A DNA stretch of 64,000 nt from Paenibacillus xylanexedens (GTDB lineage Bacteria > Bacillota > Bacilli > Paenibacillales > Paenibacillaceae): NCBI RefSeq assembly GCF_017874615.1, contig NZ_JAGIKV010000005.1, forward strand, positions 248,001 to 312,000. The letters are read 5' to 3'. The translations under genes and the position numbers were made by a program. Of the stretch, positions 4,565 to 63,000 are shown piece after piece. How positions within the stretch are numbered: position 1 is the stretch's first letter; every line of letters starts with the position of its first letter. The notes under the pieces were generated by a model that ran no database searches, was not told the DNA's origin, and saw nothing but the letters and a program-made list of their open reading frames with translations.

Positions 4565-4618
4565 GCGTTTAATGGCCGCATTGATCTGAATATCATCATC
4601 TGACGAGGAGTGATTTAC

Positions 4619-6391
4619 ATGATTCTTGAAGCCGTTTACCATCGCCCAAAACTCAATTGGTCCTATGCTTATGACCGCTCGACCATGCACCTGCGACTTC
4701 GGTCCAAACGCGGGGACCTAGATGCGGTGATTGCCATTACCGGAGACAAATATGCTTGGGATCGGACGATCACGCACACCCCTATGCACATCTTTGCCCG
4801 GGATGAAATGTTCGATTATTGGGAAGCCGAGACTTCACCTCCCTATCGCAGATTACGGTATGGTTTCCAATTGATTCAGGGAGAGGAATCGGTCTGGATG
4901 ACGGAGCGCGGATTCGAGCAGGCGCTGCCTGATCATCCACTTGAATTCTTTGATTTTCCATTTATGAATCCGGTCGACATTTTTGAACCGCCTGCCTGGG
5001 TTAAGGACGCTGTGTTTTATCAGATTTTCCCTGAACGTTATGCCAATGGTGATCCATCCCTCAGTCCCAAAAATGCTGAACCCTGGGGAGGGGAACCCAC
5101 GCCGGTGAACTTCTTCGGCGGCGACCTCCAAGGTGTGCTGGATCATCTGGATCATATAAGTCAGCTCGGCATCAATGCCATTTATTTCTGTCCGCTGTTC
5201 GAGGCCACTACGAATCACAAATACAATACAGGCGATTACATGAAGGTTGATCCTCACTTTGGAACCAATGAACAGTTCAAGGCGTTCGTGGATGCCTGTC
5301 ATCAGCGCGGCATACGTGTCGTTCTGGATGCGGTGTTCAACCATTCCGGCAGAGAGTTCCCTCCTTTTGTCGATGTCATGAAGAATGGAGCTGCCTCTCC
5401 CTACGCAGATTGGTTCTATATCAAAGATTGGCCGCCACGTGTGGAGGATGGTATACCGACTTATGACACCTTTGCCTTTGAACCGCTCATGCCGAAACTG
5501 AACACGGAACACCCTGAAGTGAAGGCATACTTGCTGGAGGTAGGACGTTTCTGGATTGAGGAGATGGACATTGACGGCTGGAGGCTTGATGTGGCGAATG
5601 AGGTGGATCATCAGTTCTGGCGCGAATTCCGTCAGACGGTAAAAGCCATTAAACCTGACGCCTATCTGCTCGGTGAGATCTGGCATGATTCGCTCATGTG
5701 GCTTCAGGGAGACCAGTTCGATGCCGTGATGAATTATCCGTTTACCAATTCGGTATTGGACTATACGGTGCACGGTAAGCTCGACGGACTCGCATTTGCC
5801 AATGAGATCGGCAAACTGCTCGCAGCCTATTCACAGCCCGTGACCGAAGCGTCCTTCAATCTGCTCGGAAGTCATGATACACCCAGACTGCTGACCTTAT
5901 GTGATGGAGACGAGCGCAAGATGAAACTTGCCGTTACGTTGCTGCTTACGTATCCAGGTGTCCCATGTATCTATTATGGAGACGAAGTGGGTCTTGACGG
6001 GGGATATGATCCGGGTTGCCGCAAGTGTATGGAGTGGGATGAGACCAAGCAGAATCGCGAGCTTCTGGAATTCTTCACCCGTACCATTACACTTCGTAAA
6101 GAGCACCCTGCCCTGCGCAGCACAGAACTGAAGATTGTATATGCAAAAGCCGGAGACCCTTGTCTTGCCATCGAACGATTGGATTCGCATACGGGAGAGC
6201 GCATGCTTCTTGTGCTGAATGCGGGTGATGAGCCGTGTACCCTTGAACTTCCTTTGGCAGATCGTAACGTCTGGCGAAATCTGTTCACATTAAACGCCGT
6301 GGAAGCTCGGCAAAACAAACTGACCCTCGATCTGGAAGCCTACGGATTCTCCCTGATGCAACTTGAGGTGAAACAACCAGCTGAGGCCTGA
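4619..6391 (+). CDS. Cyclomaltodextrinase / neopullulanase / maltogenic amylase (GH13_20)
   Basis: 590-aa intracellular enzyme that should hydrolyse cyclodextrins and maltodextrins to maltose and glucose. It has no signal peptide. An N-terminal beta domain (about 1-120, CBM34-like) precedes the GH13 barrel. Conserved region II is DGWRLDVANE with nucleophile Asp324, the acid/base is Glu353 in LGEIWHD, and the stabiliser is Asp420 in LLGSHDTPR. The VFYQIFPERYANGD segment and NHKYNTGDY are typical of GH13_20. ATG 4619 is preferred over an in-frame GTG at 4610 because GAGGAG lies 8 nt upstream. With the extracellular CGTase and the ABC importer nearby it completes a make-import-hydrolyse cyclodextrin route. 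Confidence 0.92.
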   Translation: MILEAVYHRPKLNWSYAYDRSTMHLRLRSKRGDLDAVIAITGDKYAWDRTITHTPMHIFARDEMFDYWEAETSPPYRRLRYGFQLIQGEESVWMTERGFEQALPDHPLEFFDFPFMNPVDIFEPPAWVKDAVFYQIFPERYANGDPSLSPKNAEPWGGEPTPVNFFGGDLQGVLDHLDHISQLGINAIYFCPLFEATTNHKYNTGDYMKVDPHFGTNEQFKAFVDACHQRGIRVVLDAVFNHSGREFPPFVDVMKNGAASPYADWFYIKDWPPRVEDGIPTYDTFAFEPLMPKLNTEHPEVKAYLLEVGRFWIEEMDIDGWRLDVANEVDHQFWREFRQTVKAIKPDAYLLGEIWHDSLMWLQGDQFDAVMNYPFTNSVLDYTVHGKLDGLAFANEIGKLLAAYSQPVTEASFNLLGSHDTPRLLTLCDGDERKMKLAVTLLLTYPGVPCIYYGDEVGLDGGYDPGCRKCMEWDETKQNRELLEFFTRTITLRKEHPALRSTELKIVYAKAGDPCLAIERLDSHTGERMLLVLNAGDEPCTLELPLADRNVWRNLFTLNAVEARQNKLTLDLEAYGFSLMQLEVKQPAEA

Positions 6392-6817: not shown

Positions 6818-8197
6818 CTATTTCCCAGCCGAGGCGAAGGGTATCGAAGTCATCGGTTTTCGTATTTTCTTCATTCTTGAACTTACGAGCGCTCCCTGTG
6901 TAATTACGATTTTCTGCGGAATCTTGTATGAAGGCAGCTTGTCCTGACAATATTCCCAGATGGATCGCCTCAGATCGGTGAGAGTACATTCTGTAGCCAA
7001 CCGGATCGTCACCTTCACCCTCTGACCCGTGATACCACTCTGTTCTCCCGAAACTACGGCCGCTTCAATACATTCCATCTCTTCCAGAACACCCTCGACC
7101 TCGGCAGGATACACTTTCCGTCCCCCTACGTTAATGATCTCGGAACGACGTCCCAGAATACGAATGTACCCCTGCTCCAGCACAGCTTCATCGCCAGTAC
7201 GTAGCCACCCGTCCTCTGTAAAAGGTGAAGGTGCATTCAGATATCCAATCATCGCTGTTGCTGTATGAATCTGCAATTCTCCTTCCACCACCCGGTACTT
7301 GACCCCTTCGTCTTGAATGGAAAACAGCAACGAGCCTGGCTCTTTGGAGCGGGTTGGCAGAATGCCAAGTTCAGACATGCCATAGGCTTGTATCGTCCTT
7401 AGTTGTGGATATCTCCGGTTCCAGGCTGCCAGTACGGATTCAGGCATCACTTCCGATCCGTATGACACAACTTCGAGACTCGACAGATCATACCCCTCAT
7501 CATTTCTACCCAGCAGCAACAGATTCATGAATGTTGGGGAGACAGGCAGCGCCTGCACACGAAACTTCTCAATCGTTCGGCACACTTCTTCGGGAGATCG
7601 ATCCGCAATGATACAGAGACAGCCCCCACTGGACAGGGATTGCAGCATGGTATTCACACCGCCGATATGATCAAACATCATGAATGGAATCGTTCGCAAA
7701 GGCCGAACCTGCCGCCGAAAATGATGTAACAGCCGATCTGCACGATGCACAGTCGCTTTACTCACTCCGGTTGATCCAGATGAAAAGAGTACCAGTCCGC
7801 CTACGCCCTCCTGTGCCAGCGAGGATAACAACACAGGAACCTCTCCAGATAATTCACATGTTTGCCGAATGCACAACTTGCCTTCTTCAACGCCCAAACG
7901 CCACTTTACCTGTGCCAGCTGGATATATTCCTCTCGTTTGGCTCCAACCAGGTTCCGATCCATGGGGAGCACGATACACCCTTGTCCGAGCAAAGCAACC
8001 AATGCTGCCGCTGCATAGGGGGAATAATCTTCCTCCAGCGTTACAAGTTGCCCAGTCAGCCCTTCTGCTGTAATCCACTTACTCATGATGCCAACCTGTT
8101 CCAGCAGCCACCGATAGCTGTACTCCTGATCTTTCCAGATCAGCGCAGGTTGCTGTCCCTGTTCCGCGAATCGTTCAAGCAAGAATTGGTTCAACAT
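6818..8197 (-). CDS. Stand-alone adenylating enzyme (ANL superfamily acyl/aminoacyl ligase)
   Basis: 459-aa AMP-forming ligase. The P-loop-like A3 motif is SSGSTGVSKATVH (about 139-151), A5 is YGMSELG (272-278), A7 is WLRTGD (331-336), the A8 hinge is GRRSEIINVGGRKVYP (349-364), and the A10 lysine lies in SSRMKKIRK (439-447), so it looks catalytically complete though short. ATG 8197 has AAGGAGG 9 nt upstream and overlaps the preceding gene by 7 bp. Its immediate partner encodes a carrier-protein domain, so I infer that it loads an acid onto that carrier. The substrate cannot be read from sequence. A plain acyl-CoA ligase is the alternative. Confidence 0.85.
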   Translation of the reverse strand: MLNQFLLERFAEQGQQPALIWKDQEYSYRWLLEQVGIMSKWITAEGLTGQLVTLEEDYSPYAAAALVALLGQGCIVLPMDRNLVGAKREEYIQLAQVKWRLGVEEGKLCIRQTCELSGEVPVLLSSLAQEGVGGLVLFSSGSTGVSKATVHRADRLLHHFRRQVRPLRTIPFMMFDHIGGVNTMLQSLSSGGCLCIIADRSPEEVCRTIEKFRVQALPVSPTFMNLLLLGRNDEGYDLSSLEVVSYGSEVMPESVLAAWNRRYPQLRTIQAYGMSELGILPTRSKEPGSLLFSIQDEGVKYRVVEGELQIHTATAMIGYLNAPSPFTEDGWLRTGDEAVLEQGYIRILGRRSEIINVGGRKVYPAEVEGVLEEMECIEAAVVSGEQSGITGQRVKVTIRLATECTLTDLRRSIWEYCQDKLPSYKIPQKIVITQGALVSSRMKKIRKPMTSIPFASAGK

Positions 8198-9609
8198 CTT
8201 GCATCCTCCTTACCGGCAGGCGCCCATTGCTGTGCGAGATAATCAACAAGTGAGGCCACGGTCTGATATGGGCTTTCCGGCATGGAAGCAGCAGCCATCT
8301 CCGCCAGTGCGGCTCCCATCCCCGTCCCCCATCGATCTTCGATTCCCTGCTCTACTACTGCAAGCAATGACACGAGTTCCAGCGAATCCAGTTGCCCACT
8401 TCGTCCGTACAGTGGAGCGTTACCACCCTCACCAAGTGGAATCGTTGTATTATGGTACGCGTTTAACTCCCGGCAACTATCCAATACGATACGGAGCAAA
8501 TCCTCCCTGTGTTCTTGTCCAATCATCGACATAGCCTGACGCGGGAAGCAATCTTCCTGAGGTATGGACTGTCGAAGTGACTCATACCACTGCCATTCAT
8601 CGGTGACCAACATTTTAATTACACCTGTTAGCTGTACTTTCCACTGCTCACGCTGCTTTATCCGACTGACCTGAAGCATATTGTAGGCCTTCTCCCAACG
8701 TACAATGATCTCGCTGAATTCTCTCGCATATTGATCAAGTGGAGAACCTAGCCATAAGGCAGACTCCTGAAGAAGATCTCGAAGAAAATATCGACTCCAT
8801 CGCATATCAAACAGCAGACCCGATATTAACATTTCATTGGCCTGATCCCCTTCATTCGCCCCACGCAGTGCATGTAACAGTTGTAGCGATACCGCATGTC
8901 CAAAATAATAATTGCGCTCTTCTTGTGTAATCGTCCGGCCTGTCAGAAATTCTTCAATCTGCGTTGTTAACGCCTGGATCAACATGTCTCGGTAACCGTC
9001 AGAGTCCAGCTTCACAGTCGCCCGAATGTCCATGGTTCCATACGTTCGGAGTTCTTCTTTGCGTTTGGCCTGCGCAAGCTCGGGTATGCTTTGGTTACCT
9101 TTCCAGAAGTCATGAAAGGCCCTTTGATCAACCTTTCCCTTATACTTGGAGGGCACGGGATCGTAGACGTGAACATGCTCATCTTCCAAACCATATACGG
9201 CAATCCAATGGTCTACCAGATGCAGTCGGGAACCTTGCTTCACGTGTTTGCGAATGTACTCGGGATTCTGATAATCCTCACAGTAAGGCAGATGATAACT
9301 GGTTCCTGTAGCCAAAAAAAGTCCACCTTCGCCAATATACTGCCTGATCTGCGTCTTGCCTTCCTCGAAGCTGTCCAGCTGTCGCTGACCATACATCTCC
9401 CAGATGGGCTCTACATAATCCAGTTTGTGAAAATAAGGCTTCACCAGTCCGTTATCCCCGCACGAAGGAAGGCTGTACAACCGACTTGCTGCCAGCAGTG
9501 CTAGACTTGTGATGGATCCTTGTCGATGGAGCACTTCATGAATCAGAGGAAAATTGCAGGGATAATAATAAGGAATGTCCAGCACTGGAGCGAATGAAGG
9601 AATGATCAC
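8191..9609 (-). CDS. BtrH-like acyltransferase/cysteine-peptidase-fold protein fused to an acyl-carrier domain
   Basis: 472-aa protein. Residues about 1-175 resemble the BtrH N-terminal domain (papain/C39-like fold): LFLATGTSYHLPY, then HLVDHWIAVYG with the candidate active-site His134, then VHVYDP. A helical middle follows. About 395-465 is an acyl-carrier-like domain with YGRSGQLDSLELVSLL, where Ser409 is the expected phosphopantetheine site. BtrH of butirosin biosynthesis transfers an acyl group from a carrier protein to an amino sugar; here both parts are in one chain. The start is GTG 9609, overlapping the upstream stop (GTGA), with GGAGG upstream. Domain assignment is by motif reading; the acceptor is unknown. 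Confidence 0.7.
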   Translation of the reverse strand: MIIPSFAPVLDIPYYYPCNFPLIHEVLHRQGSITSLALLAASRLYSLPSCGDNGLVKPYFHKLDYVEPIWEMYGQRQLDSFEEGKTQIRQYIGEGGLFLATGTSYHLPYCEDYQNPEYIRKHVKQGSRLHLVDHWIAVYGLEDEHVHVYDPVPSKYKGKVDQRAFHDFWKGNQSIPELAQAKRKEELRTYGTMDIRATVKLDSDGYRDMLIQALTTQIEEFLTGRTITQEERNYYFGHAVSLQLLHALRGANEGDQANEMLISGLLFDMRWSRYFLRDLLQESALWLGSPLDQYAREFSEIIVRWEKAYNMLQVSRIKQREQWKVQLTGVIKMLVTDEWQWYESLRQSIPQEDCFPRQAMSMIGQEHREDLLRIVLDSCRELNAYHNTTIPLGEGGNAPLYGRSGQLDSLELVSLLAVVEQGIEDRWGTGMGAALAEMAAASMPESPYQTVASLVDYLAQQWAPAGKEDARC

Positions 9610-10985
9610 TTTGGGCCTCCTGTTCCCGTTTTGGCTGACGTACTGCCCCAGGATTGGATTAGGTAATGCTCAGACATGTCATCTGTCGCTCGAAATACCC
9701 GATTGGCAATAGGTTTGCCATCCACATCGGTCTCGAAACGGCGGAAACCACGTGTAAACCGGAAGGAGAACCCACTATCACGCGGGACTCGGTAACTACC
9801 TTCATATCGACCTTTACCAGAACGAACAAGCTTCATGCCCATGCCACCATATATCGTTTCCTCCGAGTCTTCTTCGGGAGCTACCTCTGCATGAATGCAG
9901 ACCTCCACATGAGTGGACAATTCAGGAACGACAGTGTAGATGCGTGTAGCAGACAGTTCCCCCACAGTCAGCGTGATGGATGCACTTCCAATACCGACAG
10001 GAACCAACTCTCCACTCGCATGAACCTGAAGTACATTCGGGTCACTCGAAGTATAATTCCCATGCAGCAGACTCTGAACCAATCCACTCTCGTAGTGCAT
10101 TTGTGCATTGATACACACAGTCATTCCACCCTGTAGTCCGATGACATCCCTTCCAAGCAGTTCGAGCGAGGAGGGCTTACCCACGTGGCCGAACATATAC
10201 AGTAACGGGAGGTGAATGCGCGCTCCCCAGTCACCTTCCTGATGACAGGCACCCGGCTGTTCCAGAAATGCCAATTCCTCACCCGATCTGACTCCGCGTT
10301 CAAGTAATTGATGAGCTACCCTTCTGACCTGAGAAGGCAGAAACAGACCTTCCGTATCTCCAATATCCATCCATATTCGAACGGCGGGTACCTCCTCTGG
10401 CAAGCGATACATGTCTTCTTCCAACAGCCCGCTCTCCGATGTTTCGTCCAGCTGCACATCCACATAAAATGGCGACATCATGATCAGTTTTCCGAAAACA
10501 TCCGGATTTCGCATCCCCATGTGCAATGTACAAAGCGCCGCGGCAGATGAACCTAACAGCCCGGTATTCTGATTGTCCGGCAACGTCCGGTAACGATGAT
10601 CAATGATCGGCTTGAGCTCATGAATGATGAAATGCTCATAGGCGATCCCTGAACACCCCACACTCACGGCCTCTCCCTCCGGAGCAATGAAGTGGTAGAA
10701 TTCGTTGTGCGTGACTGGACGAACATGCGTAATGCCGACAATAATCAGTGATTCAATCTGCCCGGAGGAAATAAGACCGTCTGCTGCCTGGTCCATATTC
10801 CATGTTTCATTGCCTGGCCCTGATGGACCAAAAGCCCGCTGCCCCGCATGAACGTACAGAACCGGATAATGCCGAACTGCCTGCTCATGGTAACCGGGCG
10901 GGAGGTACACATAAATGTTGCGGATATTGCCCAGCCGCGACGCCTGAATGCCTTCCAAACATTCAATGACAGAATGGGTACTCAA
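9606..10985 (-). CDS. Fes/enterochelin-esterase-type alpha/beta hydrolase with C-terminal accessory domains
   Basis: 459-aa protein with no signal peptide. Residues 1-270 form an esterase-D/Fes-type alpha/beta hydrolase. The likely triad is Ser147 in LLGSSAAAL (a GxSxA elbow instead of the usual GxSxG), Asp210 in MDIGDTEG, and His248 in GACHQEGDWGAR. About 275-355 looks Ig-like. About 365-450 resembles a carbohydrate-binding or CBM20-like beta domain, ending FRATDDMSEHYLIQSW. The start is TTG 10985, with GAGAGGCGG upstream; a nearby ATG runs into a stop. First gene of a tightly coupled operon; probably hydrolyses or transfers the acyl product of its neighbours. Confidence 0.75.
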   Translation of the reverse strand: MSTHSVIECLEGIQASRLGNIRNIYVYLPPGYHEQAVRHYPVLYVHAGQRAFGPSGPGNETWNMDQAADGLISSGQIESLIIVGITHVRPVTHNEFYHFIAPEGEAVSVGCSGIAYEHFIIHELKPIIDHRYRTLPDNQNTGLLGSSAAALCTLHMGMRNPDVFGKLIMMSPFYVDVQLDETSESGLLEEDMYRLPEEVPAVRIWMDIGDTEGLFLPSQVRRVAHQLLERGVRSGEELAFLEQPGACHQEGDWGARIHLPLLYMFGHVGKPSSLELLGRDVIGLQGGMTVCINAQMHYESGLVQSLLHGNYTSSDPNVLQVHASGELVPVGIGSASITLTVGELSATRIYTVVPELSTHVEVCIHAEVAPEEDSEETIYGGMGMKLVRSGKGRYEGSYRVPRDSGFSFRFTRGFRRFETDVDGKPIANRVFRATDDMSEHYLIQSWGSTSAKTGTGGPK

Positions 10986-11033
10986 CGATCATCAACCGCC
11001 TCTCTTCTCCCAATTCGACTGCATAATACAAAT

Positions 11034-11059
11034 AACCCCGCCTCAGAAGAGACGGGGTT
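11034..11059 (-). other. Leader hairpin upstream of the esterase operon
   Basis: AACCCCG-CCTC-AGAA-GAG-A-CGGGGTT. On the minus strand it reads GGACAACCCCG then the hairpin then ATTTGTATT. The same GGACAACCCCG start appears in the opposite-strand leader hairpin of the CGTase gene (11265 onward). Terminator or attenuator function is inferred. Confidence 0.5.
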
Positions 11060-11185
11060 GTCCTAGAAAACACGTAAGTGTCCCGGGATACATAGCCCTT
11101 ATATTGTGAATCTGCGAATAGTTTAAATCCCCGGACGTGCTTTTGTAAACATAAAAATAGAAAATAAATGCTCCCAAAAAAGTTA

Positions 11186-11214: not shown

Positions 11215-11266
11215 AACGTTGTGATCATAACTCGAGGGCCATGCTTTTAAACCTGAGCGGTTTAGG

Positions 11267-11304
11267 ACAACCCCGGTAACTCCCGAAGGAGATGCCGGGG
11301 TTGT
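11267..11304 (+). other. Long leader hairpin of the CGTase transcript
   Basis: ACAACCCCGG pairs with CCGGGGTTGT, enclosing a second perfect stem CTCC-CGAA-GGAG. A small AAACC/GGTTT hairpin lies just before it (11249-11263). No T-run follows, so it is not a classical terminator; an RNA-stability or regulatory role is possible. Confidence 0.6.
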
Positions 11305-11357
11305 TGGCGTGTCAAAAGGAGGGAAGTCTTCAATCCACTGCGTAACACTTCGCTGTA

Positions 11358-11373
11358 TTGAAAGCGCTATTAT
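11358..11373 (+). promoter_or_regulatory. cre-like catabolite-repression site
   Basis: TTGAAAGCGCTATTAT fits the CcpA cre consensus WTGNAARCGNWWNCAW except for one position. It lies in the leader between the promoter and the CGTase start, a typical roadblock position. Confidence 0.5.
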
Positions 11374-11432
11374 TCAAGAGCCGGGTTGGTTGTTTATCTA
11401 AACTACTACATTCACGAGAAGGGTGGATTACT

Positions 11433-13589
11433 ATGTTTCAAATGGCCAAACGTGTACTCCTCAGCACAACACTGACACTCAGTTTACTTGCAGGGGGCGC
11501 ACTTCCCTATCTGCCTGCTTCAGCGATCTATGCCGATGCGGATACCGCGGTTACCAACAAGCAGAACTTTAGTACAGACGTCATCTATCAGATCTTTACG
11601 GACCGCTTCCTGGACGGAAATCCTTCCAACAATCCTACCGGAGCTGCCTACGATGCCACTTGTAGTAACCTGAAGTTGTATTGCGGAGGCGACTGGCAGG
11701 GTTTGATCAACAAAATCAACGATAACTATTTTAGCGATCTGGGCGTTACGGCACTGTGGATCTCCCAACCGGTCGAAAATATCTTCGCTACCATCAACTA
11801 CGGCGGCGTGATCAACACAGCGTATCATGGTTACTGGGCACGTGATTTCAAGAAGACCAATCCGTATTTCGGAACGATGGCTGACTTTCAAAATCTGATT
11901 ACGACTGCTCATGCCAAAGGCATCAAGATCGTAATTGACTTTGCACCGAACCACACGTCTCCTGCCATGGAAACCGATACGTCCTTTGCTGAGAATGGCA
12001 AGTTATATGATAATGGTAATCTTGTTGGCGGATACACCAATGATACAAATGGATATTTCCATCACAACGGCGGCTCCGATTTTTCCTCCCTGGAGAATGG
12101 TATCTACAAAAACCTCTATGACCTCGCTGACCTGAATCACAATAACAGTACCATTGATCAATATTTCAAAGATGCAATCAAGCTATGGCTTGATATGGGC
12201 GTGGATGGTATTCGCGTTGATGCGGTGAAACATATGCCTCTCGGCTGGCAAAAGAGCTGGATGTCCTCCATCTATGCACATAAACCCGTATTCACTTTCG
12301 GTGAATGGTTCCTGGGATCTGCTGCATCCGATGCGGATAACACGGAATTTGCCAATGAATCTGGAATGAGCCTACTCGATTTCCGCTTTAACTCTGCCGT
12401 ACGTGATGTCTTCCGGGATAACACATCCAACATGTATGCCCTCGATTCAATGATTACAGGCACAGCCGCAGATTACAATCAGGTGAATGACCAAGTCACG
12501 TTCATCGACAACCATGATATGGATCGGTTCAAAACAAGTGCCGTCAACAACCGTCGTCTGGAACAAGCGCTGGCTTTCACGCTGACTTCACGCGGCGTAC
12601 CTGCCATCTATTATGGTACCGAGCAGTATCTGACTGGAAACGGAGACCCTGATAATCGAGCCAAAATGCCTTCCTTCTCCAAAACAACCACTGCTTTTAA
12701 CGTGATCAGCAAGCTGGCCCCTCTGCGCAAATCCAATCCGGCGATTGCCTATGGCTCCACTCAGCAACGCTGGATTAATAATGATGTGTACGTTTATGAA
12801 CGCAAATTTGGCAAAAGTGTAGCTGTTGTTGCGGTGAACCGTAATCTCTCCACACCAGCAAGCATTGCGAATCTAAGCACTTCACTGCCAACAGGCAACT
12901 ACACCGATGTATTGGGCGGTGCACTGAACGGTAATAACATCACTTCTACCAATGGCAACGTCTCTTCCTTCACACTGGCGGCCGGAGCAACCGCGGTATG
13001 GCAGTATACAACGAGCGAAACAACACCAACGATCGGACATGTAGGTCCGGTGATGGGCAAACCGGGTAATGTCGTTACCATTAGCGGACGTGGATTCGGC
13101 TCCACCAAAGGCAACGTATACTTCGGTACAACAGCCGTTACTGGTGCCGGTATCACATCCTGGGAAGATACGCAGATCAAAGTAACGATTCCAGCTGTTG
13201 CCGCAGGCAATTATGCTGTGAAAGTAGCTGCGAATGGCGTTAACAGCAATGCGTATAACAACTTTACCATCCTTACGGGTGATCAGGTCACTGTACGATT
13301 CGTCATTAATAATGCTTCCACCACACTGGGTCAGAACATCTATCTGACAGGTAACGTGGCAGAACTGGGCAACTGGAGTACGGGCACAACAGCTATCGGC
13401 CCTGCTTTCAATCAGGTTATCCATGCCTACCCAACTTGGTACTATGATGTGAGTGTGCCAGCCGGGAAACAACTGGAGTTCAAATTCTTCAAGAAAAATG
13501 GGGCAACCATTACGTGGGAAGGTGGTACCAACCACACGTTCACCACACCAACCAGCGGTACAGGCACAGTCAATGTAAACTGGCAATAG
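11433..13589 (+). CDS. Cyclodextrin glucanotransferase, secreted (GH13_2)
   Basis: 718-aa secreted CGTase that cyclises starch into cyclodextrins. ATG 11433 has AAGGGTGG upstream; longer in-frame starts lack a ribosome site and would spoil the signal peptide (residues 1 to about 31, ending LPASA). Domain A/B carries the family disulfide pair Cys77/Cys84, nucleophile Asp263 in GIRVDAVKH, acid/base Glu291 in FTFGEWFLG, Asp362 in [10 protein letters not shown], and the central cyclisation Tyr229 in [11 protein letters not shown]. Domain C follows. Domain D is an IPT/TIG domain (from about [13 protein letters not shown]), and domain E is a CBM20 starch-binding domain ending [10 protein letters not shown]. 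All five CGTase domains are present at the usual length. Product is exported to feed the nearby ABC importer. Confidence 0.97.
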
Positions 13590-13745: not shown

Positions 13746-15032
13746 TCATTGATAGGTTCGGATCGACTTCAATGTTGTAGCGGCCAGAATACCTGTCGCC
13801 AGCAGTAATATGCCCACGCCTTGCAGCACAGAAGCTGCCCCCCACTGATCAGCCAATACGGACACAACAGTCAATCCCATAATAGGCGCTGTACTGGTGA
13901 TTGTTCCAACCACACCATAGACCCTTCCTTGCAGCTCGTCCGGAACGGCTGTCCTCAGCATAATCTGGGTGAGCATCGTACAGCACGCGAACATCGCACC
14001 TCCGCCCACGATGACCGGCAACGCCATGATTGGAGAGGATACATTCGCCAAAAAAATATAAATCGGCCCCAACACAATCAGACCGATAAACACCCATCTC
14101 CCTCTTCGCTTCAATCGTTTTCCCGAAGCAATCAGCAGCGCAGAGCCAATCATGTATCCCAGCGGAATACAGGTCTCAATTAATCCAAACTGTACCGGAT
14201 TCGCCTCCCATACCTTGACCGCCATCACTTGAACCAGCATCATGGCCGACATGAAAAACAAAATCAGCACCGGATTGAGCAATACGATGGATCGGATCAA
14301 AGGATTCCGATAGATGTAGCCAAACGAACTACGCCACTCCTGAGCAAACGTGGTCTGCTGACTAACAGATCGCTGTACCTCAGGAAAGCGGCCCGCAATC
14401 AGCACACAGACTGCGGACAACAGGAAGGTTGCCCCTGTAATTAATATGGCAACGAATCCGCCAAATGCAGCAACAGCAACCCCAGCTGCTGCTAGTCCAC
14501 TGATTCGGGCAAGATTATCCACCATATGAATGGTTCCGGTCGCTTGTTGAATATGTTCTCTGCCCACCATACTTGCTACAGAGGCGTGGAATGCAGGTGC
14601 CTGGAACAGACTTGAAAACATGGAGAGTGAAAGCAACAGCAGCACCACTGGGAACGACGCTTGCCAACCGAACAGGCTAATCGCAATCAGCACAGCCATT
14701 ACGCCCCGAAATACATCCGAGGCCAGCATCAGCTTCCTACGATCCAATCGGTCTGCAACCGTACCCGCCACCGATCCAAATAGAAAGCTGACGGCCATAT
14801 TGCAGATCTGTACGGCTGCCATGCTCTTTGCACTGCCTGTGGTCTGTAACACCCACAGACTGATCGCAATCCCATTGAAGCAATCCCCAAAGACCGAGAT
14901 GCCGTAGCCGCACAAAATCCTGCGAAAGGTAACATTACTCCAAAGTGTTGGGGGAGCTTTAGTATTATGCAATACAGCTTGTCCATCTTGGTATCCCATT
15001 ATCTCGGGCTCACTGGACGGGTTCATGCCCAT
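13746..15032 (-). CDS. MFS transporter, DHA3/macrolide-efflux-like
   Basis: 428-aa integral membrane protein with about 12 hydrophobic segments. The MFS loop motif between TM2 and TM3 is visible as GTVADRLDRRKLM, and the second-half counterpart is degenerate (VPDELQGRVYGV). The pattern fits the DHA3 drug-efflux group (MefA-like). The start is ATG 15032 with GGGAGG 9 nt upstream. It lies at the downstream side of the maltodextrin transport genes but is separated by about 200 bp, so it is probably an independent unit. The substrate is unknown; sugar or siderophore export cannot be excluded. Confidence 0.8.
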   Translation of the reverse strand: MGMNPSSEPEIMGYQDGQAVLHNTKAPPTLWSNVTFRRILCGYGISVFGDCFNGIAISLWVLQTTGSAKSMAAVQICNMAVSFLFGSVAGTVADRLDRRKLMLASDVFRGVMAVLIAISLFGWQASFPVVLLLLSLSMFSSLFQAPAFHASVASMVGREHIQQATGTIHMVDNLARISGLAAAGVAVAAFGGFVAILITGATFLLSAVCVLIAGRFPEVQRSVSQQTTFAQEWRSSFGYIYRNPLIRSIVLLNPVLILFFMSAMMLVQVMAVKVWEANPVQFGLIETCIPLGYMIGSALLIASGKRLKRRGRWVFIGLIVLGPIYIFLANVSSPIMALPVIVGGGAMFACCTMLTQIMLRTAVPDELQGRVYGVVGTITSTAPIMGLTVVSVLADQWGAASVLQGVGILLLATGILAATTLKSIRTYQ

Positions 15033-15230: not shown

Positions 15231-16067
15231 TTACCCTTTCGAAGCTCCTGCCGTCAGACCCTGAACCAGGAATCGTTGCAGGAAAACAAACAGCAGGGTA
15301 ATTGGAATAGCAATCAAAACCGCCCCCGCAGCAAACATCGTAAAATTACTGTCCTGATAACGGTTGACCAGATCCCACATACCCACCGCAAGCGTCCAGT
15401 TCTCTTTCGTCCGCAGCACCAGCCGGGCGAAGATAAAGTCCATCCACGCACCGGTGAAACTGGTTAGTGCCACATAAGTCAGCATTGGCTTGGATAAAGG
15501 CAGGATGATGCTGGTGAATACCCGCAGGTGACTCGCACCATCCATGCGGGCTGCTTCGTCCAGGCTGCGCGGGATGGTGTCAAAGAAACCTTTGACGATA
15601 AATCCGCCCAGTACCGCCCCTGATGAATAGACCAGGATGAGTGCAGTGTGGGTGTCGAGCAATTTAATTTGCAGCAAAATGATATAGATTGCAATCATGC
15701 TCATGAAACTCGGAAACATGCCAAGGATCAGCATGGTGGAGAGAATGGTTTTACGTCCACGGAAGCGGAAGCGGGATAAGGCATACATCCCAAGTGTCAC
15801 CATCAACGTGGAAAAGATCATCGTGAAAAAGGCAATTTTCAGCGTATTCATATACCATCTGCCGTACATAAAGGACGGGTTATTGAACAGCTCACCATAA
15901 TGGGTAAGCGTGAATGCTTCCGGCCATAACCGTTCACTGAACAATGCCGCGCCGGGTCTCAAGGAAGAGAGAAAGATCCAGAGTACCGGGTAGATGGAGA
16001 CAACGGCGATGATCAGCAACAGCACATAACTCAGGGCCAAACGCAGCGGATTATTACGTGTCTTCAT
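15231..16067 (-). CDS. Maltodextrin/cyclodextrin ABC transporter permease (MalG-like)
   Basis: 278-aa inner-membrane permease with six predicted TM segments. The EAA loop is DEAARMDGASHLRVFTSIILP, the coupling site for the ATPase. It overlaps the malF-like stop by 4 bp and is the last gene of the lipoprotein-MalF-MalG operon. No ATPase gene is present in the locus, as is usual where a shared MsmX/MalK energises several sugar importers. Confidence 0.92.
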   Translation of the reverse strand: MKTRNNPLRLALSYVLLLIIAVVSIYPVLWIFLSSLRPGAALFSERLWPEAFTLTHYGELFNNPSFMYGRWYMNTLKIAFFTMIFSTLMVTLGMYALSRFRFRGRKTILSTMLILGMFPSFMSMIAIYIILLQIKLLDTHTALILVYSSGAVLGGFIVKGFFDTIPRSLDEAARMDGASHLRVFTSIILPLSKPMLTYVALTSFTGAWMDFIFARLVLRTKENWTLAVGMWDLVNRYQDSNFTMFAAGAVLIAIPITLLFVFLQRFLVQGLTAGASKG

Positions 16068-17419
16068 TGAATCATGTCCTCCTCCTTGAATGATTTGGAG
16101 CGGCGGAAGTTCCAGATAGAGAATGAAGCGATAATGAGGAAGATGATGATACCTACCGCTGAAGCCATGTTGAATTTGTTATTGTCGAGTGTGAGCTTGT
16201 AGAGCCAGGTGACCAGCAAGTCCGTTGCCCCTGCGTACTGGTAGTCTCCCCGCAATGGATTTCCGTTGGTCAGCAGGAAGATGACATTGAAGTTGTTGAA
16301 GTTTCCGGCGAACTGCATGATGAGTACCGGGGTTGTGGCAAAAAGAATGAATGGCATCGTAATGATCCGGAATTTTTGAAACGCGGATGCTCCGTCCACT
16401 TCGGCAGCCTCGTAGAGATCACGAGGGATGGCCGTCAATACACCCAGAATCAGCACCATACTGACCGGAATACCAATCCACATGTTGACGACAATGACGG
16501 TGACCTTAGCCCAGAACGGATCTGTCAGCCAGGGTAATCCCTCCAGCCCAAATGCTCTCATGTACGTATTGATTGGACCAAACTGACCATTGAACAAATT
16601 ACGCATGAGCAGCAAGGAGATGATCTGCGGGATGGCATAAGGCAAAATAAAGATCGTCCGCCACAGCTTTTTGAAGCGTATGCCCCGCTGTTCAATCAAC
16701 AGTGCCACAAGTACGCCGCCAAAATAGGTGGTGACTGTAGCCAGGATGGCCCAGATGACCGTCCAAGTGAGCACGCCATAGAATGTCTGACTCCAGGATT
16801 TCAGCTGGATCAGATCGCTGAATGTCTTGAAACCTACCCAGTCCACGAGTTTGGCTGGCGGAATATGATCCGGGGCTGAATAGTTGGTAAACGCGATCGT
16901 GATCGTAAACAGGATGGGCATAACGGTGAAGAAAAGAATGCCCAGTGCCGGGATGGACAGGAACAGATACGGAAAGTTTTTGTCCATCATGTTCCGAAGC
17001 GATGCCGCTGCACCCAAGGTCTGCTTGCCTTCTTCCCTCGCAAGTCCCGTGACGTACGCATCCCGAATGTTCAGGATGTAGATCAGAATAAACACAAAAA
17101 ACACCAGCAGTACGATAATGCCATCAAGCAGCAAAAAGATAGAATGGTCTCCCCTTTGAAGTACGGTGGACCCATTCACTTTGACAAAACGCTGTGTATT
17201 TTCCCCCAGTGTCCATATGCCCCATACGGCCTGTGACAGGCGAGGAAGCAGGTACGCAAGCCCTGCTCCCTCCAGTAACAGTAGACAAATTCCCTTAATC
17301 CATTGTCGATTGTACAGCTGTCCAAGACCTTGCAGTATGATGGAACATATGGCCGCTGTCATCCGGTGCTGTCTTTCCCTGTTCGGTCCAACAGGCACCG
17401 GGACATGCTGCTGTTGCAT
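16064..17419 (-). CDS. Maltodextrin/cyclodextrin ABC transporter permease (MalF-like)
   Basis: 451-aa permease, longer than MalG because of an N-terminal extension. Residues about 20-60 hold extra hydrophobic segments with the GLGQLYNRQWIKG pattern seen in Gram-positive MalF proteins. The main permease domain has the EAA loop YEAAEVDGASAFQKFRIITMP and closes with a cytosolic RRSKSFKEEDMIQ tail. A family-1 palindromic repeat (17452-17638) separates it from the lipoprotein gene, so its expression relative to the binding protein may be modulated by that RNA structure. Confidence 0.92.
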   Translation of the reverse strand: MQQQHVPVPVGPNRERQHRMTAAICSIILQGLGQLYNRQWIKGICLLLLEGAGLAYLLPRLSQAVWGIWTLGENTQRFVKVNGSTVLQRGDHSIFLLLDGIIVLLVFFVFILIYILNIRDAYVTGLAREEGKQTLGAAASLRNMMDKNFPYLFLSIPALGILFFTVMPILFTITIAFTNYSAPDHIPPAKLVDWVGFKTFSDLIQLKSWSQTFYGVLTWTVIWAILATVTTYFGGVLVALLIEQRGIRFKKLWRTIFILPYAIPQIISLLLMRNLFNGQFGPINTYMRAFGLEGLPWLTDPFWAKVTVIVVNMWIGIPVSMVLILGVLTAIPRDLYEAAEVDGASAFQKFRIITMPFILFATTPVLIMQFAGNFNNFNVIFLLTNGNPLRGDYQYAGATDLLVTWLYKLTLDNNKFNMASAVGIIIFLIIASFSIWNFRRSKSFKEEDMIQ

Positions 17420-17451
17420 TCGCTCTCTCCTCCCCGCCTATTGCTAACCTG

Positions 17452-17638
17452 TATATATTGAACAAAAGTGTACTTACACTGACCACTTCGATGACAGAAC
17501 AAGCTTCCGATCGCTGTTATCCCCAGATTTTTTTGATTCATTTATATATGGTAAATCCGGGGATAAAGGCGAACGCTTGCGCTTCTTCAGCTTCCTTCTG
17601 TCCTCTCCGTTTTTGTGTAAATATGAAGTTCAATTTAT
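17452..17638 (-). repeat. Palindromic dispersed repeat, family 1, copy 2
   Basis: 187 bp. Its reverse complement matches copy 3 almost base for base over about 120 bp of core: the GCGCAAGCGTTCGCC segment, the ATCCCCGGATTTACCATAT arm, and CAGCGATCGGAAG. Terminal repeats are TATATATTGAAC and GTTCAATTTAT. It sits inside the ABC-importer operon, between the lipoprotein and MalF genes. Confidence 0.9.
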
Positions 17639-17676
17639 CCAGCTCTTATGCAAATCTTCGAATTCGTCGTTCGTCC

Positions 17677-18963
17677 TTATTGGACGGTTGCAAGGCTTTC
17701 CTGGATCTGTTTCACGGCATTGTCCAGCGATGCCTTCACGTCCTTATCGGTATCCCATATGTCCGTAATAGCCGACGTGATTGGTCCCCATACGCTGTCC
17801 ATGGCAGGAAGCGAAGGCATTGGCGTAGAGTTGTTGAACTGTTCCAGGAATGCCTTGTTGATTGTGTCCTCTTGTAACTTCGGATCAGCAGCTACGTTTT
17901 TGTTCGCAGGAAGTGTACCGTTCAGGTCAAAGTTCTCCATCTGAGCTTCTTCATTGGAAAGGAACGCTGCCAAGAGCTTCGACGCATTCGGATATTCCGT
18001 AAATGCATTCACATAATAGGCTTTAACACCTGAGAAGGAGGTCATCGGTTTGCCATCGATTGCCGGAAGCGGAGCAACACCAAAATCAATACCTGCATTG
18101 CGATAATCGGCAATGGTCCACGGACCGTTAATGTCCATAGCCAGCTTGCCGCTGGAGAATAATCCTTTTTTGATATCATAGTTCACGTCACCCATCTTGA
18201 GCGGCAGCACTTCCGACTTCAGCGTCTGCAAGAACTGTCCACCCTTCTGGGCTCCTTCGTTATTCAGACCGAGATCCGTGCTATCCATCCCGTTGTCTCC
18301 AAAAATATAACCGCCCTGTGAAGCCAGGAACGCATAGTTATAGTAAAATTGCTGCAATTCCCACATCAGCGCATACTGATTGGACTTCACATTATTAAAC
18401 GTCTTGGCGAAACTGATAATTTCATCAAAGTTTTTCGGAGCTTCTGGATAGAGTGCTTTGTTATAGAAAAGGGCGTAGGTCTCCACGCTGTACGGATAGC
18501 CGTACAGGATATCCTTGAACGTCACTGCCTTCAGCGCGTTGTCGCTGGTGTTCTCTACGGTCTCTGCTTCGAATATGTCATTGGGCAGAATCAGTCCCGC
18601 CTCTGAAGCACTACCAATCTTATCATGTGGGAAAACAACCACATCTGCCGCCAGACCCGCTGGGCCATCCGTCGTCAGCTTGGTTACCTGATCGGTTGGA
18701 GGTAATTCCTCCATTTTGACTGTTACCCCATATTTTTCTTCGAATTTTTTGGCTCTTTGTTCAATAAAGCTGCTTTGATTTTTATCCTCCCAGATCACCA
18801 GGGTTGCCCCTTCTTCCGGTTGAAGGTTCTCGGCTGTCAGCTCTACAACTTCCTCCGGATTCTCACCTGCCGTAGTTGGAGATGGACTTCCGCCTCCAGC
18901 CCCGCACGCAGCCAGTGTAAAAGCCATCATGACGGACAATGTTGCCCCTTGCCATTTTCTCAT
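17677..18963 (-). CDS. Maltodextrin/cyclodextrin-binding lipoprotein (MalE/CymE-like SBP)
   Basis: 428-aa extracytoplasmic substrate-binding protein anchored by a lipid. The start is ATG 18963 (MRKWQGATLSVMMAF), preceded by AAGGGGA; the longer open frame is not supported by a ribosome site. The lipobox is LAAC, with Cys near residue 21, followed by a Gly/Ser/Pro-rich linker. SBP family-1 features include LVIWEDKNQSSFIEQRAKKF and GKLAMDINGPWTIADYRNA, typical of MalE-type proteins. First gene of the importer operon, divergent from the LacI regulator with two operators between them. Confidence 0.92.
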   Translation of the reverse strand: MRKWQGATLSVMMAFTLAACGAGGGSPSPTTAGENPEEVVELTAENLQPEEGATLVIWEDKNQSSFIEQRAKKFEEKYGVTVKMEELPPTDQVTKLTTDGPAGLAADVVVFPHDKIGSASEAGLILPNDIFEAETVENTSDNALKAVTFKDILYGYPYSVETYALFYNKALYPEAPKNFDEIISFAKTFNNVKSNQYALMWELQQFYYNYAFLASQGGYIFGDNGMDSTDLGLNNEGAQKGGQFLQTLKSEVLPLKMGDVNYDIKKGLFSSGKLAMDINGPWTIADYRNAGIDFGVAPLPAIDGKPMTSFSGVKAYYVNAFTEYPNASKLLAAFLSNEEAQMENFDLNGTLPANKNVAADPKLQEDTINKAFLEQFNNSTPMPSLPAMDSVWGPITSAITDIWDTDKDVKASLDNAVKQIQESLATVQ

Positions 18964-19064
18964 GTAAAATGTCCCCTTCCCTCTGCTTGGTCCAACAAAG
19001 TTCGCGCTTTTCACCCTTTTGTCTGCGTATGTTGTCAGGTTTTGCATCCCATATTCCATTTTGT

Positions 19065-19076
19065 ACAAACGTTTGC
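19065..19076. promoter_or_regulatory. MalR-type operator 1
   Basis: ACAAACGTTTGC, with palindromic core CAAACGTTTG, in the leader of the binding-protein gene. It matches the MalR/LacI-family operator type ACGCAAACGTTTGCGT. Confidence 0.75.
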
Positions 19077-19150
19077 TCAAATGGGAGAAAAGATGACCTC
19101 TCCGTTCAATATGTAGGGGTAAACAAGTCAAGAAGTATGTAAATCCAACG

Positions 19151-58458: not shown

Positions 58459-58525
58459 TCTCTGGCAAAAAAAGCCATCCTTCCGGCCCGGTCCTTCGAC
58501 CGTGGCTAATCGGTAAGAAGAATCC

Positions 58526-58576
58526 AAAACACCCCGGCATCCTTCCCATCTCAGGGAAAAGGTTGCCGGGGTGTTT
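58526..58576 (+). terminator. Terminator of the FNT gene
   Basis: AAACACCCCGGCA pairs with TGCCGGGGTGTTT, with an inner CCTTCC/GGGAAAAGG stem. Confidence 0.85.
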
Positions 58577-58622
58577 CTCTATAGGCAGGCTCACGGATAA
58601 GCCGCCTGCCCTCCACACGCAT

Positions 58623-60088: not shown

Positions 60089-63000
60089 CTAGTTCTGTAA
60101 CTGCGCAAGAATCTGCGGGTCCTTGATCTTTTTATCTTCGGCAAGCAACATCACCTTGGACAGAATCTCAGCCGTTCTCGGATCTTCATCGAGGAATGGC
60201 AGGAAGATTCGACCCCGATGCTGACTGTGCACCGGAACAATATGAAGTGCACCTGTGGCTTGTTTGATCACATTACCACTCCCCAGATGAACAGCATACT
60301 CACCCAATTCACCATCAATTCGTGCGTAATTCCCGTCCAGACGTACATTGTTGATCTTCAGCAGACGCAACGACTCGTTCACAATGACGTGACGCATCTC
60401 GATTGTTGTCAGGCTGGCTTCCGGATCTACGCCTCCCACATGTGCAACGCTGACCACCAGATCGATATCACGCATGACTTCCGAGAAGAACGTCAGCGGC
60501 ACATCTTGCAGCGCTACAGGTTTGTAGCTCTTGCGATCGTAGAACTGCACCGTCTCCAAGGTAGGTGCTTCGGTATCTGCGGGTGAGAACCAATCTGCCA
60601 TGGCATAGAGATTCGCGATCAGATTGTGCTCATAGCTTACCTTCTGCAGACCTTCCTCATAACTGACAGTCCATTGGCGTCCTTTAAGCAGCGCTACTGC
60701 TTTTTTCGGTTGGATCTGATACCCGGCATATCGGCGGGACACCGTACCATTAGCCAATTCGTCCTCGTTAGGAAGATATAGCTCACGGAATACCTGCTTG
60801 AACGGCTGACGCTCCTGACGGGTGAACAGATCCCGCTGGAATTCACTCCAGCTTCCGCTCTGATACAGATGAAGCGGATGAGCAATCAACAGTTGATCCT
60901 GTTCCGCTAGTGCCTGGATCGTACCCTCCGGTCCTGGAGCAACCAAACCACTGGACGATACATCGAATCTCCCCGTCTTGTCACCTGACTGGAATACAAG
61001 TGTTCTTACCAGCGGATATATAACCGGATTTTGCATCAGTCTGGCAATTTCCTGACGTGTAAAGGACGTTCCAGCAGTCATCGAACGTTCCAGCTCCTGT
61101 CGTGCCCGGCGATACTGATCCACCAGATCCGATTTCAGCTCTTTTAGTTCAGCGATATATCCATCTTTTTTGAACCGGGCAGGTACAGACTTGAGTGTCT
61201 TGCCTTTGCTAACGATAACCATCTCGGGTTGGCCTTCCTCATCAATGACCAATTGTGCCGTCGTGTCAGCATCCAATGCATGAGGTTCAAAGAAGGATTT
61301 CATCTCATCCAACTTACGTGCTTCCATGTCCCACATCAGCCGCGTAACATCGGCATAACCTGCATTACGAGCAAGATTGCCCAGTGCAATCTGTGATGCC
61401 ACACCTTCACTGGCACGGCGTTGTGCACCGAATTGTTTGCTCTGCATCAGGAACTTCTGAATGAAGTCGTATCGCTCACGCAGATCCTGTTCCCGATTTA
61501 CAGCGAATGGAATCAAACTGTAAGTTAACAAATGATCCTTGTTTCGCTTGTCTGACACGGACTCACGCATATCGTCCAATCGAAGCTTGCCCAGTGCAGC
61601 ATCTGCGAACAATTGGGATCTGCGGTGGTTAGATCCCCCGGAAATGTACTTGGCACAATCGTATAACAGATTGAATCGTTCCTCCCCGACAGCAGCATAG
61701 GCTTCTTCGAACCAAGCGATATCAAACGCACCTTCATTGAAGTCCTGTGGTGAGATTGGAGAATAGTGGGCCACGATGGTTTCTTTCTCCGCAGTAAAGC
61801 GTTCATTAATATGAGCATGGAAGTACCAGGCTGCACTGCGTAGACCTTCCCATCCCAGATGTTTCGCTACAATCTCCATCCACTGCGGGGCGTACATGGC
61901 TGCTTCCAGCAATTTTTTCTCATTCACCGGATACTTATGGAGCAACTCCCCAAGACGCATATCATCTTCTCCATCCCGTGGATGACAATTCTGAATTAGA
62001 TAGCTAAACGTCTCTTTACGTATTGTGTTGTCTCCATAGCTATAGATATATCCACGGACAAATGTATCCTGATCCATCGCAGAGACCAGATGTACCCAGT
62101 GTTCCATGCCTTCAATTCGATCCAGTTTCATGGCAAGTGTGCTTACTTCTGTAGAGAGTTCTCCCCGGGTCAGCTCAATCTCCAGAATGCGATCGACCAC
62201 CGCATCTCGCAATTGAACAAGCTTCGGATCACTCGCGATCATTTCTGTACGAGTGGATGTTAAGTCCCGAATAAACAACAGACGATTCTCACCGACCAGC
62301 ACCTGTCGATATATCTCTTGATCATCAATCAGGTTCAACTGGTACGCACGCAGGAAATCTTCAAGTGACAGTAAAGACAGCGGTTGACTACTCTCTACAA
62401 GACTGGTGAACTGGTAAGCTGTCTGGAAGAAACGTTTGAAGCTGTTATCGTCATGGATTTTGCCACGAACTACATAATTCCAAGGTCCAGTCAGAATATG
62501 AAGCATGCCTGACTCTTTTTCGAGTCGATCAGCAGGCATACTTGAGATGATGGAGGCCCAGGTTTTCTCAGCTATTTCAAACGTGTCGATCGGATCGCTA
62601 TCCTGAAATGCCGCCGATATCAGTGCCACTACCTGATCCTTATACGTTAACGAATCCAGCATCTGCTGCAGCTTTTCGATGTCATCCAGAGGATAGATCT
62701 GTTCGGCAAACGACTTGCGCCAGCCTTCCAATAACGGAATCTTCTGCAATTCGTCATAGTCATACTGCTCACGGAAATAACTGTAATGGTCGCTCAAATT
62801 GCCATTGAACTCCCCGAGCTGTATAGCCATGTATAGCTGCATCAGTTCCACACTGCTGAACCCGGCATGTTGAATATAGTTCTCCCATACGTCATGAAGC
62901 GGAAATTGTTCCATCTGCTTCATTTCATTCCGCTCTCCATACGGAACCTTGGAGCGAAGACTCGCTCCGACTAACAATGTGTCTTTATAGCCAGCGTAGT

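Follow-up and report, generated by a model that had tools for sequence, protein, structure and literature searches.

A BtrH-like acyltransferase fused to a carrier domain in a Paenibacillus xylanexedens operon: a predicted amide-forming pathway with a leader RNA element in common with starch enzymes

Background

Lincosamide synthetase, as portrayed in two papers (PMC4351081, PMC12945683), unites a stand-alone ligase, a small carrier domain and a condensing enzyme that together form an amide with an amino sugar. BtrH, which with the carrier BtrI belongs to butirosin biosynthesis (PF14399), is termed an acyl carrier protein:aminoglycoside acyltransferase (PMC10318531). CtaG and AziU2/U3, which possess a papain-like fold, likewise belong to antibiotic pathways, those of closthioamide and azinomycin. 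Here we report on a stretch of 64,000 nucleotides from Paenibacillus xylanexedens (contig NZ_JAGIKV010000005.1, positions 248,001 to 312,000 of the forward strand; "the window" hereafter), in which three overlapping genes encode a Fes-type esterase, a BtrH-like acyltransferase fused to a carrier domain, and an AMP-forming acid ligase. The gene order is widely conserved, and the operon has a leader RNA element in common with the adjacent gene for cyclodextrin glucanotransferase (CGTase).

The operon possesses the same combination of ligase, carrier and CcbD-type fold as lincosamide synthetase (ligase LmbC, carrier domain of LmbN/CcbZ, condensing enzyme LmbD/CcbD). Lincosamide clusters likewise fuse the carrier to a neighbouring gene, whereas the Paenibacillus operon fuses it to the condensing enzyme itself; neither proline nor thiooctose genes were seen with the operon, and an esterase gene and a major facilitator superfamily (MFS) gene go with the unit. 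The third catalytic residue is Asp in the fused protein in contrast to Glu in CcbD, as given in a review. By analogy, the operon would work like a lincosamide synthetase, but we do not file it as a member, as the lincosamide sugar and amino-acid genes were unseen. Compared with butirosin biosynthesis, the carrier is fused and no butirosin genes were seen, and the match to PF14399 (BtrH_N) reaches 23.6 bits against a curated cut-off of 29.7, which makes the protein a relative rather than a member of that family. The Cys-His-Asp spacing is the same as in CtaG, going by the names of the CtaG variants, but CtaG and AziU2/U3 are only 9-15% identical to the fused protein.

Results

The operon and its proteins

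A preliminary description of the window had recognised an operon of three overlapping minus-strand genes for an esterase, a BtrH-carrier fusion and an adenylation enzyme. This is confirmed: the genes overlap by 4 and 7 bp (Table 1), and the Pfam matches agree (Esterase; sub-threshold BtrH_N; AMP-binding together with its C-terminal domain). The predicted structure of the 472-residue fused protein matches the structures of AziU2/U3, CcbD and CtaG over about residues 6-353, and Cys18, His134 and Asp150 are invariant in all 35 aligned rows. The same description had assigned Ser409 to a carrier domain, which the structure prediction bears out: a carrier fold is present, Ser409 opens a helix, and the position is Ser in 32 of the 32 rows that have the domain. 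Three PF01648 genes are found in the genome, so that phosphopantetheinylation of the carrier is possible. By its modelled fold and its catalytic Cys, His and acid residue the fused protein fits the papain-like carrier-dependent amide synthases (BtrH, CcbD, CtaG), and amide formation is its predicted reaction.

Table 1. Positions of the operon, the leader RNA element and neighbouring genes in the window
Feature	Position	Strand	Remarks
Leader RNA element, operon copy	11028..11102	-	AGGGCYAUG box, hairpin P2, RACAACCCCG box, terminator-like hairpin P3 (11034-11059)
Esterase-family protein (PF00756)	9606..10985	-	first gene of the operon, TTG start; Fes/CE1 fold residues 1-267, Ig-like and beta-rich C-terminal parts; Ser147, His248
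BtrH-like acyltransferase fused to carrier domain	8191..9609	-	472 residues
Papain-like acyltransferase domain	8551..9609	-	residues 1-353; Cys18 (9556-9558), His134 (9208-9210), Asp150 (9160-9162)
Carrier domain	8215..8523	-	about residues 363-465; predicted phosphopantetheine site Ser409 (codon 8383-8385)
AMP-forming acid ligase (ANL)	6818..8197	-	predicted carrier loader
Leader RNA element, CGTase copy	11232..11308	+	
CGTase	11358..13589	+	divergent from the operon, same RNA element 5' of the gene
MFS exporter-like gene	13746..15032	-	co-occurs with the operon; nearest NCBIfam models below cut-off
Cyclomaltodextrinase/neopullulanase-like GH13 enzyme	4610..6391	+	context
MalG, MalF, MalE-like ABC importer genes	15231..19131	-	context

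The ligase has AMP-binding domains above cut-off and thus is an ANL adenylating enzyme. Among the best 25 of 105 NCBIfam models it reached the cut-off of no named ANL equivalog (MenE, DhbE, FadD and others): the best equivalog, menE, scored 111.5 bits (cut-off 330.15) and the best model overall, a subfamily, 143.2 bits (cut-off 476). The esterase agrees with PF00756 (Fes/CE1) in fold, nucleophile and His; Ser147 is present in 19 of 20 rows, with Cys in Nostoc, and His248 is invariant. Cohnella faecalis has two or more additional esterase paralogues, arranged in tandem on the upstream side of its cassette (L050, 1871-4547).

The carbohydrate-binding module (CBM) that had been proposed for the tail of the esterase was not recovered. 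A profile of the last 115 residues found a single PDB chain (E 0.32), Pfam gave no match for the tail in the window and two stray ones across 12 rows, comparison with the CBM20 of CGTases by hhalign yielded a probability of 0.4%, and a search with the region, which requires shared 5-residue words, returned 13 near relatives only.

By their fused protein the closest named contigs are those of Paenibacillus sp. PAMC 26794 and OVF10 (94% identity), and P. amylolyticus Heshi-A3 is 93% identical. The ratio dN/dS against locus L035 is 0.110, 0.085 and 0.066 for the three genes, low values that point to purifying selection on each of them; in the comparison with L041, dS was not computable for two of the three. 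No multidomain assembly line of the nonribosomal peptide synthetase (NRPS) or polyketide synthase (PKS) kind was found by Pfam in the three proteins and in 10 of the 21 large open reading frames (ORFs) located at 22-64 kb, nor by eye at 1-22 kb, in agreement with the preliminary description.

Conservation of the cassette across genomes

Esterase, BtrH, carrier and ligase are adjacent and in the same order in 30 of 31 loci from Bacillota, Cyanobacteriota and a metagenome-assembled genome (MAG), so that the anticipated conserved co-occurrence of the genes holds. Two of these 30 loci have broken or merged frames (L037, L052), and the remaining locus (L061) has BtrH but not the other genes. BtrH and carrier are encoded by separate neighbouring genes in Evansella, Nostoc calcicola and the MAG, where the gene order is kept; this provides independent evidence for a joint function of the two parts. 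The fused rows, 32 in number and including identical ones, form one Paenibacillaceae clade with a support of 100/100 under midpoint rooting, as one fusion event in this family would give.

These data qualify the claim that a fused form with its own loading enzyme is unusual. The fusion does stand outside an assembly line, but it is the Paenibacillaceae variant of a cassette that is encoded elsewhere by separate genes, and fusion as such is not unique, since BtrH-like domains also lie near the C-terminus of NRPS-size ORFs (L153-L155, their NRPS nature judged from size and look, without a Pfam scan). In those ORFs, too, one long chain holds a BtrH-like domain; there, however, the match is weak (38-49 bits) and the domain ends the chain, whereas in the Paenibacillus fusion it precedes the sole carrier.

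A CGTase gene accompanies the cassette in 24 of 30 loci and the MFS gene in 25 of 30 (manual count); in Nostoc and the MAG the cassette has a gene of the alpha-amylase family no more than 2 kb away, though not on the same side in the two. A PhyH-family gene (2-oxoglutarate oxygenase type) stands 3' of the ligase gene in ten of the 30 loci (L045, L046, L048-L053, L055, L056) and was not seen in the stretches of the closest relatives of the window (L031-L044).

The association with the MFS gene was followed in 99 genomes, that of the window among them. The fused gene is present in 30, after removal of a match in G091 (23%, inside an ORF of 2535 residues), and the genomes with an MFS ortholog (E <= 1e-80) are precisely these 30. 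By manual count, 34 genomes including all 30 have a close CGTase (identity of 81% or more, near full length). In G012, G013, G055 and G036 the CGTase is present, but the operon and the MFS gene, which flank it on opposite sides, are both absent from the locus. Among NCBIfam models the MFS protein reaches 163.4 of 319.6 bits with TIGR00900 and 110.8 of 324 with EntS, both below cut-off.

The leader RNA element

Alignment of the divergent intergenic region revealed the same element on both transcripts: a box AGGGCYAUGC, a hairpin P2 of variable sequence and length, a box RACAACCCCG, and P3, a hairpin of terminator-like appearance. In the whole genome of 7 Mb there are two occurrences of the pattern GGGCYATG-N12..42-GGACAACCCC, both at this locus, with 0 occurrences expected in the window by shuffling. 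With model R1 or R2, each of the 30 cassettes tested from Paenibacillaceae (the window, L031-L057, L118, L119) showed the element ahead of its esterase gene; nine of these copies had gone into building R1. Four of the 30 element-led cassettes have no CGTase in the stretch examined, and, conversely, the element is kept 5' of the CGTase gene in four loci without the cassette (L126-L129).

Rfam 15 gave no match in the window at gathering score; in a lax scan the best hit at the element had E 0.26 (21.7 of 55 bits), and none with E <= 0.05 was found at the element in seven other loci. In its promoter-proximal conserved box, its variable hairpin and its terminator-like hairpin 5' of the gene the element resembles the terminator-type leader RNAs (attenuators) of Firmicutes, from which it differs by this lack of an Rfam match and by its targets, starch enzymes and the BtrH operon. 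Judged alone, the RNA element may represent a new family.

RNAalifold on a MAFFT alignment returned only three pairs and no covariation, because the lengths of P2 differ, and P2 was then tested sequence by sequence. All 60 distinct P2 segments (from 67 distinct elements collected by the pattern) have a negative folding energy, with a total of -434.2 kcal/mol as compared to -171.7 for shuffled sequences (standard deviation 12.4; best of 100, -204.9) and a mean z of -2.9. Pairing of AGGG with CCCC as an antiterminator is a guess, for which the boxes, which hardly vary, offer no covariation. Two candidates were discarded: the palindrome TAAACC-N5-GGTTTA as a LacI-type operator (one match, 1.87 expected by chance), which is the hairpin P2 of the RNA, and an R2 match at 58524-58615 of the window (E 9.8e-6), which is absent with R1.

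At a threshold of E <= 1e-4, R1 found matches in 78 of the 296 genomes from the order. We surveyed 50 further loci (L188-L237), comprising all listed matches outside the genus of the window and G678 of the genus, and leaving out four at known cassette loci (G582, G661 and two in G697) as well as an antisense partial match in G591. Alpha-glucan genes follow the element in 36 of the 50: CGTase in 29, giant pullulanase/amylase ORFs in six, and a CBM21 protein in one. In eight loci (L210, L212, L217, L218, L220, L223, L234, L235) the short-P3 form of the element stands directly 5' of AAC(3)-family (PF02522) ORFs, six of them assigned by Pfam and two (L217, L220) by resemblance of the first residues. 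The element precedes MATE genes in two loci (L221 by Pfam, L222 by its near-identical leader), and in another two (L199, L233) an operon of HAD phosphatase, MFS, class-III aminotransferase and zinc dehydrogenase genes, which we take to resemble azasugar biosynthesis; L224 and L237 are unexplained. In G582, an ORF scoring 437 bits with the cassette MFS profile stands beside an element-led pullulanase gene, with the cassette on another contig.

The element thus marks mainly alpha-glucan enzymes, and the BtrH operon is its regular non-hydrolytic member in Paenibacillaceae. The leader common to the operon and the CGTase gene suggests joint control with starch use, a link to carbohydrate that is stronger than the one hinted at in the preliminary description from the glucan locus and the tail of the esterase. 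The AAC(3), MATE and aminotransferase branches misfit a pure starch signal and hint at amino sugars; the carbohydrate acceptor itself is something we infer.

Discussion

Inferring each reaction, the acid, the acceptor, the export, and the RNA control with its signal, we propose, with a probability of about one half, that the ligase loads the carrier, that the BtrH domain forms an amide on an amine, likely that of an amino sugar, and that an EntS-like MFS protein exports the product under leader-RNA control linked to starch. The ligase would use ATP and a carboxylic acid to form an acyl-carrier on the phosphopantetheine of Ser409. Judging from the fold, the triad and CcbD, Cys18 would then take over the acyl group and pass it to an amine, probably of a sugar. 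The esterase may trim, proofread or remodel an ester intermediate, which is the weakest link of the scheme, and the MFS protein, by its family and its co-occurrence, would probably export the amide. Transcription probably stops at P3 unless a signal favours an alternative structure, and the product would be made during the use of starch or maltodextrin. The chain from ligase to carrier to transferase had been suggested before; the carrier fold at Ser409 and the conserved gene order support it, and the MFS gene must be added to the unit.

Several observations weigh against this proposal. Neither the BtrH_N match nor the carrier comes within Pfam cut-offs, a papain-like enzyme might also catalyse ester formation or hydrolysis, and AziU2/U3, the nearest proteins by fold, act in azinomycin biosynthesis and are not known to be simple acyltransferases. 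Since neither an aminotransferase gene nor any amino-sugar gene is part of the operon, the amine is conjectural. All 30 genomes in which operon and MFS gene co-occur belong to one genus and provide few independent events. Outside Paenibacillaceae, the Evansella, Nostoc and MAG stretches (L058-L060) showed neither the element (0 of 3) nor a CGTase gene. At 14 of the 50 further loci the element precedes genes other than those for alpha-glucan enzymes; starch itself may therefore not be what the RNA senses. The P2 segments share ancestry; in L203, L071, L190, L056 and L119 they fold no or little better than shuffles (z +0.2 to -0.9), the P2 of the operon copy in the window is itself weak (z -0.7), and no covariation was found for a switch between terminator and antiterminator.

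The same genes can be read in other ways. The cassette might protect the cell by N-acylating an incoming amino-sugar inhibitor or aminoglycoside from competitors on starch, to be expelled by the MFS protein. The element 5' of AAC(3)-family and MATE genes agrees with such a role, as does the description of BtrH, quoted above, as an aminoglycoside acyltransferase. A dedicated ligase and carrier would, however, be a costly way to inactivate a drug, we know of no carrier-dependent resistance of such kind, and the element precedes alpha-glucan genes at most of its further loci, which leaves protection improbable. Distinctly improbable, too, is a siderophore-like pathway that would produce, release and reopen an iron-binding ester or amide by means of the ligase, an aryl carrier, the amide-forming enzyme, the Fes-type esterase and the EntS-type exporter: the locus is a starch locus whose leader RNA is common with starch enzymes, inspection by eye of the ORFs at 1-22 kb showed no gene for isochorismate or for siderophore uptake (no search of the genome was made), and the position taken to be Asn235 in ligases for dihydroxybenzoate (DHB) or salicylate, such as DhbE, falls at Ile178 of the ligase via alignments with 4CBL.

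A chain of ligase, carrier and transferase also describes the Dlt system, and the ligase matches DltA weakly (7vhv_D, E 1.9e-11), so that the cassette might acylate a polymer or protein in a manner like D-alanylation, with the glucan locus a mere neighbour. Yet the cassette includes no DltB-like membrane acyltransferase, no signal peptide is visible by eye at the start of the esterase, and neither the leader RNA common with starch enzymes nor the exact co-occurrence of the MFS gene fits; we regard this as slightly less probable still than a siderophore. That the three genes form a group by chance or by decay and serve no common function is hardly credible, as nothing but the weak Pfam scores speaks for it, whereas a gene order shared by 30 loci from Bacillota, Cyanobacteriota and a MAG, purifying selection and invariant catalytic residues speak against it.

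The proposed amide-forming pathway can be extended to a broader hypothesis, which we hold to be possible but rather unlikely: starch-degrading Paenibacillaceae would make and export an N-acylated amino sugar, a small mimic of alpha-glucan that inhibits the amylases or the growth of competitors, by a minimal non-NRPS machine that is switched on together with CGTase and pullulanase by an undescribed class of RNA attenuator, which would also target AAC(3)-like N-acetyltransferases and the presumably azasugar-like operon. None of the open-access titles and abstract openings listed in our literature searches describes a BtrH-carrier fusion outside an assembly line, a cassette with Fes-like esterase and EntS-like MFS protein, or the leader RNA. 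The parts are of known kinds; relative to that portion of the literature, the fusion outside an assembly line, the make-up of the cassette and the leader RNA in common with starch enzymes are new. If the proposal is true, acylation would here proceed independently of NRPS and PKS systems, by a pathway that joins carrier and condensing enzyme in a single chain and is small enough to be reconstituted. The common leader suggests that bacteria which expend cyclodextrins and maltodextrins as public goods produce a small molecule to go with them, and the structured RNA element, without a match in Rfam 15, is a testable candidate regulator 5' of industrial enzymes such as CGTase and pullulanase.

Relatives of the single components occur in other settings. 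Bacillus-type relatives from four genomes in two genera, with a BtrH-like protein (195-203 bits) and a generic ligase (69-73 bits), were set aside as a different pathway; a small carrier-like ORF and an ORF like an aminoacyl-tRNA synthetase (aaRS) were seen there by eye, and the homologue P0039 was not found on PLSDB plasmids. In the Bacilli genomes of L149-L152, an operon-like array encodes a BtrH-like protein together with what look by eye like genes for a carrier, an aaRS-like protein and an ABC transporter. L061 (Fictibacillus) has BtrH-like genes and an aaRS-like gene (PF00587), with a small carrier, two PhyH-like genes and a glycosyltransferase recognised by eye, and is probably another carrier-based sugar pathway. 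Paired relatives of the ligase and the carrier (524-577 and 53-69 bits), in each case lacking the esterase, occur in sugar loci with NeuB, SDR and GNAT genes (L083, assigned by Pfam; L084 and L116, similar to the eye), in L115, which has the look of a PKS locus, and in L117 next to a BtrH-like protein with a weak match. This suggests that ligase and carrier are perhaps a portable acid-loading pair, although these loci (L083, L084, L115-L117) did not reveal the acid. Two further observations concern other features: a BsrG-family RNA match (75.6 bits, RF01412) in Cohnella laeviribosi (L046, 14311-14554, minus strand), and a 1290-residue DUF5724/DUF4132 protein of unknown function encoded at 60089-63961 on the minus strand of the window.

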